This document shows, piece by piece, positions 12,582-63,950 of a DNA stretch of 64,000 nucleotides. Both the position numbers and the translations under genes were made by a program. The notes below the pieces were generated by a model. That model did no database searches and was not told the origin of the DNA. It saw only the letters and a program-made list of their open reading frames with translations. The number at the start of each line of letters is the position of its first letter. Position 1 is the first letter of the stretch. Source of the stretch: Hymenobacter sublimis (GTDB taxonomy: Bacteria; Bacteroidota; Bacteroidia; Cytophagales; Hymenobacteraceae); the NCBI RefSeq assembly GCF_023101345.1, contig NZ_CP095848.1:1673501-1737500 (forward strand), read 5' to 3'.

Positions 12582-12589
12582 GCAAGGTA
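12582..12589 (-). promoter_or_regulatory. -7 box TACCTTGC for the minus-strand GT-C gene
   Basis: It lies 4 nt upstream of the GTG at 12577 and forms the tip of the left repeat arm. Confidence 0.55.
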
Positions 12590-12864
12590 GGGGGCGGTGG
12601 TGAAATAGTGAGATGGTGAAATAGAGAGTGAGTGAAGTGGTGTCATGACGAGCAGAGCGCGGCTATCCATCCTTCACGAAGTACTGCACCCTGAAATATG
12701 ACCAGCCTCGACGTCTGTACTGGCGGTAAGGGCTTGTCACGTTTCTAAGGTTGTCACAAAGAGAGGAAAGATAGAGTCGTTGTGCCTCCTGGCTCACGGC
12801 ACCACTTCACTCACGATTTCACCACCTCACTATCTCACCACCTCACTATCTCACCACCGCCCCC

Positions 12865-12872
12865 TACCTTGC
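12865..12872 (+). promoter_or_regulatory. -7 box TACCTTGC for the plus-strand GT-C-like gene
   Basis: It lies 5 nt upstream of the ATG at 12878 and forms the tip of the right repeat arm. Confidence 0.55.
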
Positions 12873-31062: not shown

Positions 31063-31166
31063 AGGGAGGTGGTAAGACGGTGACCTGGGGAGCTGAGTGT
31101 GCCCGCGGCGTGGTACTGCACAAGCAGCCCAGCTAGTTCGCCGGGTCACTTTCTTGCCACCTCCCT
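31063..31166. repeat. Imperfect inverted repeat between waaA and rsgA
   Basis: The left arm 31063-31088 and the right arm 31141-31166 pair over 26 nt with about 4-5 mismatches (AGGGAGGTGG...GTGACC and its complement). The right arm overlaps the last codons and TGA stop of waaA. Confidence 0.7.
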
Positions 31167-49031: not shown

Positions 49032-49499
49032 CTACCCGCGCTTGGCCTCAATCAGTTCGTAGCCCTCATCCGTGAGCAAGGGGCCTTTAGTGGCGCTCCA
49101 CACGGCTAACTGGTCGCACCGCTCATTTTCGGGGTGGCCGTTGTGGCCGCGCACCCACCGGAACTGCACGCTGCGCTGCTTGTATATTTTGAGAAAGCGT
49201 CGCCAGAGGTCTTCGTTGGCTTTCTTGCCAAAGTCCGGCTTGGCGGCCCAGCCAAACACCCACTTTTTCTCCACGGCATCTACCACGTAGCGCGAGTCCG
49301 TGACGACGGTAATGGGCAGCTCGGGGCGGGTAATGGCTTCCAGGCCCACAATGACGGCTAGCAGCTCCATGCGGTTGTTGGTGGTGAGGCGGAAGCCCTG
49401 GGTTAGCTCTTTTTCGTGCTGACCAAAGCGCAGAATAGCCCCGTAGCCGCCCGGCCCAGGGTTGCCCCGCGAGGAGCCATCGGTGAATAGGTGAATCAT
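49032..49499 (-). CDS. rnhA: Ribonuclease HI
   Basis: 155 residues. The DEDD metal-binding set is D7 (LFTDGSSRGNPG), E45 (NNRMELLA), D68 (VTDSRYV) and D129 (ERCDQLA), with the supporting H119 in WVRGHNGH. It removes RNA from RNA-DNA hybrids. Cytosolic. The trmN6 gene follows after 1 nt. Confidence 0.96.
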   Translation of the reverse strand: MIHLFTDGSSRGNPGPGGYGAILRFGQHEKELTQGFRLTTNNRMELLAVIVGLEAITRPELPITVVTDSRYVVDAVEKKWVFGWAAKPDFGKKANEDLWRRFLKIYKQRSVQFRWVRGHNGHPENERCDQLAVWSATKGPLLTDEGYELIEAKRG

Positions 49500-49506
49500 A
49501 CGGTCT

Positions 49507-49612
49507 GGGGTCTTAGGAGCTTGGGGTATTAGGGGCTTGGATGAGGTTCTAAACCAGAATATGTATTCAGAACATCCTCCAAACCCTAATATTCCAAGCT
49601 CCCAAAGCCCTA
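49507..49612. repeat. Imperfect intergenic inverted repeat, rnhA-marC
   Basis: Arms 49507-49550 and 49570-49612 share complementary blocks GAGCTTGG, TATTAGGG and CTTGG/CCAAA with several mismatches and small shifts, spaced by about 19 nt. The right arm includes the marC TAG stop (49610-49612). Confidence 0.65.
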
Positions 49613-50170
49613 AAAATTACTTTTAAACAGCTTGATGGCAATAGCCAACAGAATCACGCCAAACACACGGCGCAGAATGTCCTCACCGGCTTTGCCCAAC
49701 TTGCGCTCAATCCAGGCCGAGCTTTTCAGTACCAGGTACACGAACACCAGGTTTACCAGCACGCCAGCCAGCACGTTGGGTAGCTGGTAGGCGGCGCGCA
49801 AAGACAGCAGCGTGGTCATGGTGCCGGCGCCCACAATCAGCGGAAACGCCAGCGGCACGATGGAGCCCGTGGCGCTGAGCGGATTGTGCTTGAACAGCTC
49901 CACTCCCAGAATCATCTCCATGCCAATCAGGAAGATGATGATGGCGCCCGCCAGGGCAAACGACTGGAAGTCAACCCCAAACAACGACAGGATGCTCTGG
50001 CCCAGAAACAGGAAGGCAATCATCAGGACCCCGGCCACGAGCGTGGCCTTTTCCGAGTGAATCTTGCCCTCACGCTGCCGAATCTGGATAATAATGGGGA
50101 TGGAACCCAAAATATCAATGATGGCAAAAAGCGTCAGCGTAACCGACGCAATTTCCTTTAAGCTGAACAT
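49610..50170 (-). CDS. MarC-family integral membrane protein
   Basis: 186 residues, six predicted helices. The N-terminus (FAIIDILGSIPIIIQI) and AFPLIVGAGTMTTLLSL match the MarC/UPF0056 family, as do the second-half FLIGMEMILGVELF and VFGVILLAIAIKLF segments. Inner membrane. Function of the family is unclear; the old drug-resistance role in E. coli was not upheld. The aminotransferase gene precedes it on the same strand. Confidence 0.88.
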   Translation of the reverse strand: MFSLKEIASVTLTLFAIIDILGSIPIIIQIRQREGKIHSEKATLVAGVLMIAFLFLGQSILSLFGVDFQSFALAGAIIIFLIGMEMILGVELFKHNPLSATGSIVPLAFPLIVGAGTMTTLLSLRAAYQLPNVLAGVLVNLVFVYLVLKSSAWIERKLGKAGEDILRRVFGVILLAIAIKLFKSNF

Positions 50171-50177
50171 AGGGAAA

Positions 50178-50255
50178 GGTGAAGTTGTGAAGGGCGAAAT
50201 TGCAAAAACCGGCTAGTGTGCGTCAGAGCGCAACTTCACCCTTCACAACTTCGCC
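50178..50255. repeat. Intergenic inverted repeat (23 of 26 nt) upstream of marC
   Basis: GGTGAAGTTGTGAAGGGCG... (50178-50203) pairs with 50230-50255, with 3 mismatches in 26 and a 26-nt loop. The repeat fills the gap between the aminotransferase stop and the marC ATG. Confidence 0.8.
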
Positions 50256-50261
50256 GGTGCC

Positions 50262-51329
50262 TTACGCAAACTCCCGGGCGAAAAACTGCACCAGCTGCTC
50301 AAAAGCCGCGTCGGGAATGGCCGGGAAATTGGCAATGCGCAGGCTGGTAGGCTTCCAGGTGCCGTAGCCGCTGCCCAGCTGCAGGCCCTGGGCCAGGGCC
50401 CGGCGCTTTACTTCCTCAATCAGGGCCGGGGGGCCTTGCAAACCAATAACGGTAGTAGAACGGGCCTCGGGATTGGTAATTAGGGGCGAGAGTTGGGTAG
50501 CCTGGTCGAAGTAATCGTAGAGCTTGTTGGCCCGGTCCTGCAGGTGCTGGTGCACCGCCTTGATGGCGGGCCGGTCGGCGAGGGTGCGGCTCAAGAGGTA
50601 GATATCCAGCACGTTGGGCGTGTGGGTGGTCTGGTAGTTGAGCATCTTCTCGTACTGGGCCATGAGCGAGTTGTAGTGGCGGCGCTCATTGATTTTGCGC
50701 ACCCGCTCGATGGCCCGCGGCGAAAGCAGCATAACGGACAAACCCGCCGGCAAGCCAAAGCACTTCTGCACCGAGGCGTACCAGATATCGGCCTTGATGT
50801 ACTTGAGCTGAATGCCGGCCAGCGAGGAGGTAGCATCCACGGCCAGCAGGGCGTTGCCGGGCAGGCGGTTGTACATGTTCAGTACTACCCCGTCGCGCAG
50901 CTGGGTAGCGTTGCTGGTTTCGTTCTGGGTGATGCAGACCAGGTCCGTCTTCTCGTCGAGGCCGGGCAGGTTGTAGACATCGGGCACCTCATCAACGCCG
51001 AACTTCAGGCCCACCGACTCGGGTCGCAGCTCTTTGGCGTAGTCAAACCACTTCTCCCCGAAGGCCCCGTTGTAGAGGTGGAAGCTCTTGGTAGGCGTTA
51101 GGCTTTGGGCCAGCACCTCCCAGCACTCCGTGGCCGAGCTCATGAAAAATACCGTGTAGTCTTGCGGGATGTTAAGCTTGTTTTTCAGCTCCTGCACGGT
51201 TTGGCGCATGAGCTGCACAAACCGCTCGCCCCGGTGTTGGGCCGACAGCCAGCCTTCGTCAAAAGCATCCTGGAGGTACTGGCGCACCTGCGGGTACACT
51301 TGCGAAGGGCCGGGATTGAATGTATACAT
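50262..51329 (-). CDS. Class V aminotransferase (phosphoserine aminotransferase-like)
   Basis: 355 residues. PLP-lysine K189 lies in YASVQKCFGLPAG, with D165 in LLAVDATSSLAG contacting the cofactor. The N-terminus FNPGPSQVYPQV and HRGERFVQLM resemble SerC and alanine-glyoxylate aminotransferases. The size and SSATECWEVLAQ are consistent with SerC-like enzymes. Serine synthesis is the simplest proposal; other class V substrates remain possible. It follows aroQ on the same strand. Confidence 0.85.
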   Translation of the reverse strand: MYTFNPGPSQVYPQVRQYLQDAFDEGWLSAQHRGERFVQLMRQTVQELKNKLNIPQDYTVFFMSSATECWEVLAQSLTPTKSFHLYNGAFGEKWFDYAKELRPESVGLKFGVDEVPDVYNLPGLDEKTDLVCITQNETSNATQLRDGVVLNMYNRLPGNALLAVDATSSLAGIQLKYIKADIWYASVQKCFGLPAGLSVMLLSPRAIERVRKINERRHYNSLMAQYEKMLNYQTTHTPNVLDIYLLSRTLADRPAIKAVHQHLQDRANKLYDYFDQATQLSPLITNPEARSTTVIGLQGPPALIEEVKRRALAQGLQLGSGYGTWKPTSLRIANFPAIPDAAFEQLVQFFAREFA

Positions 51330-51377
51330 AGGAAGGAAAGGCTAAGGAAATGGAAAGGCAAAGGACGGGGAAATGGG

Positions 51378-51465
51378 GAGTTAGTGAATGCGTAATTGAG
51401 TGAATTGTTGTGCTGTCAGTGCCGCTTTGCCTGCGTAACTCACTCAATTACGCATTCACTAACTC
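51378..51465. repeat. Perfect 26-bp intergenic inverted repeat, aminotransferase-aroQ
   Basis: The arm 51378-51403 (GAGTTAGTGAATGCG...) is exactly complementary to 51440-51465; the loop is 36 nt. The right arm contains the aroQ TAG stop (51459-51461). Confidence 0.9.
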
Positions 51466-51908
51466 ACTTTAAACCCTACCCGTTTGGGTCGCTGCCCGTC
51501 GAAATAGTGCAGGGCCAGCTTGTAGCTTTCGAGCTTGAAGCCACTGATGCTGCCTACGCAGTTGCGCCCGATGAGACTTTTCTGGCGAAACTCCTCGCGG
51601 GCGTGCAGGTTGCTCAGGTGTACCTCTACCACGGGCGTACCAATGGCGGCAATGGCGTCGGCCAGGGCCACGCTGGTGTGCGTGTAGCCGCCGGCGTTCA
51701 GCACCACGCCGTGGTAAGTGAAGCCCACCTCGTGCAGCTTGTCGATCAGGGCACCCTCGTGGTTGCTCTGGAAGTATTCCAGCGTGAACTGCGGGAAAGC
51801 CTCACGCAGCTCCGGCAGGTAGTCCTCGAAGGAGCGGGCGCCGTAAATGCCGGGCTCGCGCTGGCCGAGCAGGTTCAGATTAGGGCCGTTGAGCAGCAGA
51901 ATTTGCAT
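51459..51908 (-). CDS. aroQ: Type II 3-dehydroquinate dehydratase
   Basis: 149 residues from the ATG at 51908. LLLNGPNLNLLGQREPGIYG, catalytic Tyr22 and His102 (HLSNLHAREEFR), and LNAGGYTHTSVALADA are all present. It converts 3-dehydroquinate to 3-dehydroshikimate in aromatic amino acid synthesis; the fold is flavodoxin-like and typically dodecameric. Divergent from xerD, a pairing I recall as conserved in Bacteroidota. Confidence 0.95.
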   Translation of the reverse strand: MQILLLNGPNLNLLGQREPGIYGARSFEDYLPELREAFPQFTLEYFQSNHEGALIDKLHEVGFTYHGVVLNAGGYTHTSVALADAIAAIGTPVVEVHLSNLHAREEFRQKSLIGRNCVGSISGFKLESYKLALHYFDGQRPKRVGFKVS

Positions 51909-52125: not shown

Positions 52126-53028
52126 ATGTCTACTTGGTCTATTACGCTCAAACAGTTCGAAGGCTACCTACAGCTGGAAAAATCCCTTTCTGCCAACTCC
52201 GTGGAAGCCTACGTGCGCGACGTGCACAAGCTGCGCCAGTACCTGGAGCTGGAAAACCTGCCGGCCACGCCCCAGCAAGTCACCACCCGCATCCTGCGCG
52301 ACTTCCTGACCTGGCTGGGCGGCCTGGGCATGACGGCCACCTCCCAGGCGCGCACCCTCTCGGGCATCAAGGCCTTCTACCGCTTCCTGATTATGGAAGA
52401 CATGCTTACGCTAGACCCCACCGACACGCTGGATGCGCCCAAAACCGGCCGCAAGCTCCCTGATACGCTCAGCTACCCCGAAATTGAGCAGGTACTCAGC
52501 GGCATCGACCTGAGCACGCCCGAGGGCACCCGCAACCGCGCCATGCTGGAAGTGCTGTATAGCTCCGGCCTGCGCGTAAGCGAGCTGACGGGTCTGCGCC
52601 TCTCAAATCTGTACGCCGACCAGGGCTTTGTGCGCGTGACGGGCAAAGGCAACAAGGAGCGCCTAGTACCCATCGGGCGCGATGCGCTGAAGCACCTGGG
52701 CTTCTACCTGCAAAGCATCCGGGCCCACCTCGACATCAAGCCCGGCCACGAAGACACGGTGTTTCTGAACAAGCGCGGCAGCGGCCTTTCGCGGGTGATG
52801 GTGTTCAACATCATCAAGGATGCGGCAGTGAAGGCGGGCATTCAGAAAAGTATCAGCCCCCACACGTTCCGGCACAGCTTTGCTACCCACCTCATTGAGG
52901 GCGGAGCCGACCTGCGGGCCGTGCAGGAAATGCTGGGCCATGAAAGCATCACGACCACCGAAATCTACACCCACCTCGACCGGGACTACCTGCGCCAGGT
53001 TATCACGGAGTTTCATCCGCGCAGCTAG
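52126..53028 (+). CDS. xerD: Site-specific tyrosine recombinase XerD
   Basis: 300 residues from the ATG at 52126; the frame extends to 52051 but crosses the promoter. Core-binding SAM-like domain 1-110; catalytic domain with R150, H246, R249, H272 and nucleophile Y281 (EIYTHLD), plus a lysine near 174-177. The size and HTFRHSFATHLIEGGADLR are typical of the housekeeping Xer proteins that resolve chromosome dimers at dif with FtsK, whose gene lies 2.4 kb downstream. Not a phage integrase. Confidence 0.94.
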   Translation: MSTWSITLKQFEGYLQLEKSLSANSVEAYVRDVHKLRQYLELENLPATPQQVTTRILRDFLTWLGGLGMTATSQARTLSGIKAFYRFLIMEDMLTLDPTDTLDAPKTGRKLPDTLSYPEIEQVLSGIDLSTPEGTRNRAMLEVLYSSGLRVSELTGLRLSNLYADQGFVRVTGKGNKERLVPIGRDALKHLGFYLQSIRAHLDIKPGHEDTVFLNKRGSGLSRVMVFNIIKDAAVKAGIQKSISPHTFRHSFATHLIEGGADLRAVQEMLGHESITTTEIYTHLDRDYLRQVITEFHPRS

Positions 53029-63848: not shown

Positions 63849-63950
63849 GTCATCCTGCGCCAGAGCGAAGGACCTTGTTAGGCAAGAACGAATCGGTCAT
63901 ACGATGGTCGTTATAATCTGCCAAGGTCTTTTGCTTTTGCTCAGGATGAC
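63849..63950. repeat. REP/MITE-like imperfect hairpin repeat
   Basis: GTCATCCTG...GAAGGACCTTG at 63849 is imperfectly complementary to CCAAGGTC...CAGGATGAC ending at 63950. The core word GTCATCCTG also occurs in the 5928 hairpin. The remaining sequence to 64000 shows no gene. Confidence 0.68.

Follow-up and report, generated by a model that had tools for sequence, protein, structure and literature searches.

Short repeats built of seven-base units lie between the genes of several groups of bacteria, and they are the described elements that most resemble those reported here: long inverted repeats that fill intergenic gaps in Hymenobacter sublimis and its relatives. The repeats were noticed in a 64 000-nucleotide (nt) stretch of the H. 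sublimis chromosome (NCBI RefSeq assembly GCF_023101345.1, contig NZ_CP095848.1, positions 1,673,501 to 1,737,500 of the forward strand), hereafter the window, in which the consecutive genes aroQ, amt, marC and rnhA are separated by three gaps that each hold such a repeat. In Xanthomonas and Nostoc the published units are G-rich heptamers (GGGAATC and GGGGA(C/T)T), presented as quadruplex formers (PMC4692102). They share with the Hymenobacter repeats the 7-nt unit, a location mostly between aligned genes with few between divergent ones, a placement <50 nt from a stop codon (sense strand) or start codon (antisense strand) and, in Xanthomonas, an inverted arrangement, with 70 and 75 inverted pairs in two genomes and few in Nostoc. 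Each of those genera has one unit family, whereas Hymenobacter has several vocabularies, and 83% of Xcc repeats keep the same context in Xac, whereas Hymenobacter arms are often replaced between species.

The TAACTGA repeats of Beggiatoaceae, Cyanobacteria and some Bacteroidetes are likewise 7-nt units near start codons, most often ending 1 nt before the start and sometimes running over a stop; unlike the Hymenobacter repeats they are direct, with one inverted case, and a regulator-binding role is proposed for them (PMC4679880). Template switching at quasipalindromes homogenises arms and inverts spacers, and Hymenobacter shows spacer inversions as well as paired changes that may reflect arm homogenisation; the cases described are short repeats in yeast coding DNA, whereas here long, spacer-filling arms of 7-nt periodicity occur in a bacterial genus (PMC8604942). 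Ladoukakis and Eyre-Walker invoked template switching to explain why short inverted repeats are over-represented in bacterial coding sequences (as related in PMC4060949). Repetitive extragenic palindromic (REP) elements of the CGTC-tagged superfamily have been reported in Bacteroidetes too, and a Hymenobacter class with words of the form GTCATNC... is similarly dispersed, palindromic and intergenic, a candidate likeness to them; the non-REP class, unlike REP elements, has no clear sequence family, and the H. sublimis genome gave no match to the Y1 transposase (RAYT, PF01797), for which 5 of 14 control genomes were positive (PMC3733652 for the superfamily). The stem-loop families of 40 bacterial genomes are also intergenic, and some span gene borders; they are defined by sequence, unlike the Hymenobacter arms, which mostly share no family (PMC2267715). 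Heptad elements have been published for Geobacter too.

Template switching and heptad repeats are each separately known already. We recognised no description of genus-wide spacer rewriting or of such repeats in the literature searched, which lacks most subscription journals. A preliminary description of the window, made from its letters, knew of no named element of this kind, a statement that holds in part, since the related 7-nt repeats of Xanthomonas, Nostoc and Beggiatoaceae are published. Our reading, to which we give slightly less than an even chance, is that the long inverted repeats would arise, and be renewed, in the DNA itself through template switching, and would not be kept for the sake of an mRNA hairpin.

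Inverted repeats in the window and in the genus

The inverted repeats are real in all three gaps and lie where the preliminary description had placed them. In gap 1 (aroQ-amt) the claimed 26/26 pairing holds, at 97% when taken over 29 nt; the gap 2 (amt-marC) repeat pairs at 21/23 positions in its core and at 82% in an extended 33-nt version; and the imperfect repeat of gap 3 (marC-rnhA) pairs at 81% without gaps and folds over almost its entire length. The three repeats span most or all of their intergenic space, with loops of 36, 26 and 49 nt and no T-run by eye. Predicted RNA folds of gaps 1, 2 and 3 on the gene strand reach -47.6, -47.1 and -55.9 kcal/mol (z = -10.9, -7.2 and -8.7), with no equally stable fold among 200 shuffles. 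Judged by eye, the arm sequences are unrelated from gap to gap, as had been claimed. The further claim, that the upstream gene's stop codon lies inside an arm in two of the three gaps, stands clearly for aroQ in gap 1 and is borderline elsewhere, the amt and marC stops contacting only the outermost base of the extended arms. Four more loci had been said to behave in the same way, and we find other long-loop repeats of the window at 1169-1215, 12582-12872 and 31063-31166, and a REP-like one at 63849-63950. We left the repeat at 12582-12872, in a divergent gap, out of the argument because the gene starts there are uncertain.

We scored repeats at +1 for a match and -2 for a mismatch. In the window, 15/49 gaps hold a repeat scoring >=13; nine of these repeats have loops <=10 nt and are mostly terminator-like, and six, including the three reported, have longer loops. 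A sample of 464 kb of the same genome (the window and 20 other stretches; 273 gaps) has repeats scoring >=14 in 33/170 tandem, 33/52 convergent and 1/51 divergent gaps, as compared to a mean of 0.2 over all 273 when shuffled. In a pooled sample of 1.26 Mb, comprising the H. sublimis sequence, 18 relatives and 220 kb each of the genomes G009 and G023 (hereafter X and Y), a score >=13 is reached in 156/524 tandem, 89/127 convergent and 21/145 divergent gaps, and in 1/796 shuffled ones. The repeats are therefore far beyond chance; a frequency no higher than in shuffled intergenic DNA, which the preliminary description had named as grounds for dropping the idea, is not what the genomes show. Long-loop repeats occupy 12/168 tandem and convergent gaps in 385 kb from 13 order-level genomes, as compared to 168/651 in the Hymenobacter sample; three of those 12, one at the stop only (G026) and two at both ends (G028, G038), look unit-like in their arms by eye.

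Two kinds of repeat are mixed in the genome: short-loop, terminator-like hairpins (loop <=10 nt) and long-loop repeats, to which the three reported gaps belong. The 35 short-loop repeats in tandem gaps have a median loop of 4 nt, a median start 24 nt past the stop and a T-run in 14 cases, whereas the 121 long-loop tandem repeats have median arms of ~30 nt, loops of 32-34 nt, a median start 9 nt past the stop and a T-run in only six (3/86 in the non-REP subset). REP-like words (GTCATNC) occur in 35/121 of the long-loop tandem repeats and are absent from the other 86. Across 75 arms (>=18 nt) of non-REP long-loop repeats in tandem gaps, identity exceeds that of shuffled arms at lag 7 (0.42 vs 0.30) and lag 14 (0.41 vs 0.29), and less so at lag 8 (0.35 vs 0.29); nothing comparable to the 7-nt periodicity was found in 40 short-loop arms. 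The non-REP units are degenerate and some measure 8 nt, and the arms qualify as tandem arrays of 7-nt units (STRR-like); units discernible by eye include GTGAAAT, AGTTGTC, GTGCTTA, TTAGCTG, GGGTCTTA, GAGTTAT and AATTAAA. No dominant 7-mer is shared among 111 non-REP arms, the commonest occurring nine times against a shuffled maximum of eight, and a search of the loops for a single core found none that defines the class, TGAGTT and AACAAC being enriched. The 5' arms contain 16% C and 31% G, an inward polarity.

Long-loop repeats hug the ends of genes: 69/121 of the tandem ones begin between -9 and +12 nt from the stop, and 44/121 also end near the next start. When placement is randomised within the gap, the expected means are already 52.3 (stop) and 31.2 (stop and start), and the observed values were reached in 3 and 0 of 20 000 trials; our first null model, which also let placements run 45 nt into each gene (19.4 and 8.5 expected), overstates the effect. 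Much of the flush appearance thus arises because the repeats fill short gaps.

Two side observations concern the units. An example in the H. sublimis genome outside the window is a perfect GGGTCTTA octad repeat with 28-nt arms (L077, 1498-1605; G000:C1:3569366-3569400 region), which fills the gap between the genes of ribosomal protein S7 and EF-G, leaving 5 nt to the stop and 7 nt to the start, and is located downstream of S12; the S12, S7 and EF-G genes normally form one operon. The 5' arms of the 86 non-REP long-loop repeats contain 178 stop triplets, as compared to 148.9 in shuffled arms, and 17 arms have stops in all three frames, as compared to 7.1. This excess is only moderate, and we set aside stop-codon catching as an origin of the units.

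Orthologous spacers in relatives

The Amt protein identified 53 loci, 41 of them in named Hymenobacter. Counting species with a score >=13, the window included, a repeat is present in the aroQ-amt gap of 24/42, the amt-marC gap of 34/42 (23 of which are filled from stop to start) and the marC-rnhA gap of 15/28. The divergent gap between aroQ and a tyrosine recombinase gene has one in 20/38 species, seven of which abut both start codons, and has none in the window itself; REP-like words mark 11 of these 20 repeats and one of the seven. The arms form several vocabularies by eye, some of which recur at one gap in distant species. The preliminary description had suggested that structure, not sequence, is conserved, and relatives do carry long inverted repeats at the same sites with arms that are often different, mostly adding less length than the repeat spans.

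The nearest relative, H. glacieicola, shares 90.4-93.5% DNA identity with H. sublimis over five genes, and gaps 1, 2 and 3 with their flanks share 75.5, 84.9 and 63.9%. Its gap 1 holds no repeat scoring >=10, its gap 2 repeat is homologous but imperfect, and its gap 3 repeat is a different one. Genomes X and Y, with 141 reciprocal best hits at a mean amino-acid identity of 92%, have 103 conserved gaps, 24 of which contain a repeat of either class in both species. Where both species have a repeat and the better of the two has a loop >14 nt (n = 15), the arms align at >=65% in 10 gaps and fail to do so in five. Where a gap has been replaced (80, 104 and 153, for example), similarity breaks off, as judged by eye, at the border of the coding sequence or the promoter.

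Individual loci illustrate the range of arms. At L010/L134 (H. amundsenii), 71-nt arms of GATGTTGCT-type units fill the 179-nt amt-marC gap from stop to start. In the marC-rnhA gap, a GGGTCTTGG-like vocabulary recurs across distant species (L130, L144, L152, L153, L156 and, loosely, the window) and others differ, a pattern that hints at long persistence with turnover of units.

Possible marks of template switching

If template switching makes the repeats, replication would copy one spacer end onto the other, the switch using one arm as template for its partner. Its reach would be limited by coding sequence and promoters, slippage of small units could give the periodicity of 7-8 nt, and one-sided mutations would then erode the repeat until its next rewriting. 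That even close species have unrelated repeats at the same spot is likely because spacer ends keep being recopied in this way. Three kinds of change are of the sort expected from such switching. At X/Y gap 110 the loop is inverted between the species (score 20, vs 8 forward; 0/1000 shuffles), and so are the loops of two pairs from the divergent aroQ-recombinase gap, both REP-like (L137/L161, 14 vs 6; L148/L149, 13 vs 5). In H. elongatus (L066, L151) a 41-nt arm takes in the final 36 nt of aroQ, the stop codon among them, and 23 nt separate this arm from its partner. Between X and Y, 13 paired changes were counted in long-loop arms, where a rough hand estimate gives ~2 under independence. Arm correction by template switching, one of two explanations offered in the preliminary description, accordingly gains some support from inversions, a coding-end copy and paired changes, and stays short of proof.

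Several observations weigh against template switching as the general source. Among 880 loop pairs at four gaps, 60 score >=11, of which 21 match significantly forward only, four inverted only, three in both orientations and 32 in neither, so that loops keep their orientation more often than they invert. Spacer inversion between relatives is seen in a minority of pairs, one of the four inverted cases (the window vs L144) may reflect shared inner arm words, and gap 110 is the only clear inversion without REP words. We discarded general spacer inversion by intermolecular switching, which is not seen among these pairs; because forward loops dominate, the intramolecular form is required if switching is the rule. 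Copies of coding ends are rare (six in 1039 gap entries, with some species counted twice). The preliminary description had looked to paired changes in relatives for a decision: they exist, yet one-sided changes outnumber them, at 78 to 13 in long-loop arms and 53 to 12 in shorter-loop arms, the contrast between the two classes is not significant (Fisher p = 0.51), and alignment inside repetitive arms may itself yield false paired changes. The promoter consensus TAnnTTTG has no exact match in the divergent-gap loops, an RNA role at 3' ends would also explain why the repeats are so much commoner there than in divergent gaps, and the positions of gene starts, from a home-made gene caller, are approximate. 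A partial insertion is possible, furthermore, at 11 of the non-REP X/Y gaps considered below, which have a repeat in one species and no trace of it in the other (the excess has a median of 32 nt, the span being 99 nt).

RNA hairpins, mobile elements and other explanations

The other explanation in the preliminary description, mRNA 3'-end or intercistronic hairpins under selection (terminators without a T-run, RNase barriers or stop-start translational coupling) that keep their pairing as their sequence drifts, is not supported in the long-loop class, and we regard it as unlikely. It would account for the enrichment of tandem and convergent over divergent gaps, the very stable predicted folds and some paired changes; moreover, 43/44 stop-to-start repeats have no TAnnTTTG within 75 nt upstream of the start, as the interior of an operon predicts, and one repeat fills the S7/EF-G gap, normally within one operon. 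Selection on RNA pairing should nonetheless leave G.U mismatches in excess, and the mRNA hairpin is disfavoured because G.U does not outnumber A.C on the transcribed strand: 121 long-loop tandem repeats have 89 G.U, 87 A.C and 75 other mismatches (95% interval for the G.U share 0.43-0.58), and only the 35 short-loop ones lean to G.U (12, vs 4 A.C and 3 other; p = 0.08). Some divergent gaps (L053, L054, L058, L061, L067, L070 and others), moreover, hold similar repeats that adjoin both start codons, and there no single mRNA begun between the genes can carry both arms; promoters presumably lie within these loops, and transcripts from inside a neighbouring gene could also occur. Some divergent-gap repeats are REP-like or consist of two facing promoter-like motifs (e.g. 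L143, L123), and we conjecture that repeats are scarce in divergent gaps because promoters occupy the room. T-runs are rare in the non-REP long-loop tandem class as compared to the short-loop one, and the near relative H. glacieicola does without the gap 1 repeat. A role of the RNA hairpins in cells is possible. Ordinary intrinsic terminators, which do exist as short-loop hairpins in the same genome and gap classes, hardly come into question for the three reported repeats, whose loops of 26-49 nt are not followed by a T-run; the class as a whole also starts nearer the stop than the short-loop one does. The long-loop repeats are not ordinary terminators.

Nor are they mostly whole mobile insertions. 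REP-like elements, or elements resembling miniature inverted-repeat transposable elements (MITEs), could insert at gene borders and families could replace each other at one site, an account that we consider rather improbable overall. The REP-like class speaks for it. Between X and Y there are 26 gaps in which one species has a long-loop repeat and the other nothing scoring >=13; at the four REP-like ones the median excess length is 107.5 nt, as compared to a span of 91.5 nt, and three of the four add >=0.7 of the span; at the 22 non-REP ones the median excess is 15 nt and the median span 99.5 nt. Only two of these 22 look inserted (>=0.7 of span), 10 lie within 0.25 of span of zero and 10 are intermediate or shorter; at half of them (11/22) the other species retains a weaker repeat (score 11-12). 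Insertion thus fits REP-like repeats better than non-REP ones, and we discarded whole-element insertion as the main non-REP route, with the reservation of the 32-nt excess where no trace remains, which speaks for mobile elements. In their favour, too, inspection by eye shows unit vocabularies shared by several loci, and most of gap 2 is matched at 72% by two further loci; gaps 1 and 3, by contrast, have one short partial match each elsewhere, the 7-mers of the non-REP arms recur only weakly, and the H. sublimis genome has no match to a reverse transcriptase any more than to the Y1 transposase, so that both were dropped as candidate engines. DNA-level functional elements placed by selection (cruciforms or binding sites of heptad-binding proteins, e.g. 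insulators or roadblocks) would agree with the occurrence of repeats in all three gene orientations, with the inward polarity and 7-nt period of the arms, and with similarly placed heptad repeats in other phyla. We think them very unlikely, as no single core sequence for protein binding was found and many gaps of the same type, and many orthologues, have no repeat.

Template switching may also be put in a wider form, which we hold to be doubtful: Hymenobacter chromosomes would undergo continuous, genome-wide rewriting of spacers, whose ends are made inverted copies of each other whatever the direction of transcription, in steps of ~7 bases, so that spacers are replaced faster than genes diverge and the mirror form persists; the heptads of cyanobacteria, xanthomonads and sulphur bacteria would be traces of the same process. 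If template switching does remake the repeats, structure without sequence conservation between genes need not imply a conserved RNA, for mutation can keep remaking hairpins, and such hairpins would mislead surveys of RNA structure and terminators. It would also give the unexplained seven-base repeats of several phyla a testable origin, and would offer a natural system in which to watch template switching genome-wide.

Features of the window

The genes and repeats of the window that are discussed here are collected in Table 1. The tyrosine recombinase divergent from aroQ is presumably of the XerC/D type. Rfam covariance models gave 0 matches in the window at gathering scores.

Table 1. Genes and inverted-repeat arms in the window (positions count from its first letter)
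Feature	Position	Strand	Remark
rnhA, RNase H	49032..49499	-	PF00075 match
Gap 3 repeat, arm adjoining rnhA start	49508..49534	.	81% complementary to 49584-49610
Gap 3 repeat, arm adjoining marC stop	49584..49610	.	complementary to 49508-49534
marC	49610..50170	-	PF01914 match
Gap 2 repeat, arm adjoining marC start	50181..50203	.	21/23 paired; extended arm 50171-50203
Gap 2 repeat, arm adjoining amt stop	50230..50252	.	extended arm up to 50262
amt (label used here), class V aminotransferase	50262..51329	-	PF00266 match
Gap 1 repeat, arm distal to aroQ	51378..51403	.	pairs 26/26 with 51440-51465
Gap 1 repeat, arm holding aroQ stop codon	51440..51465	.	pairs with 51378-51403
aroQ, class II dehydroquinase	51459..51908	-	PF01220 match
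Tyrosine recombinase, divergent neighbour of aroQ	52126..53028	+	PF00589, PF02899 matches
Divergent-gap long repeat, left arm, GTGA-type units	12582..12628	.	score 35, loop 197 nt
Divergent-gap long repeat, right arm, partner of 12582..12628	12826..12872	.	
Long-loop repeat in tandem gap	31063..31166	.	one arm 21 nt into upstream gene's end
REP-like (GTCATCCTG) inverted repeat	63849..63950	.	

Two minor observations concern amt and its surroundings. In genome G010 (~C1:4173670-4174727) two matches that overlap, one of which has an internal TGA, together make up the amt homologue; the split is probably due to a frameshift or an assembly error. Between the gap 1 repeat and the amt start, at 51330-51377, the window has a promoter-like block (TACCTTTGC and variants), which we take to fit the Bacteroidota -7 motif; the aroQ-amt gaps of relatives have a similar block.

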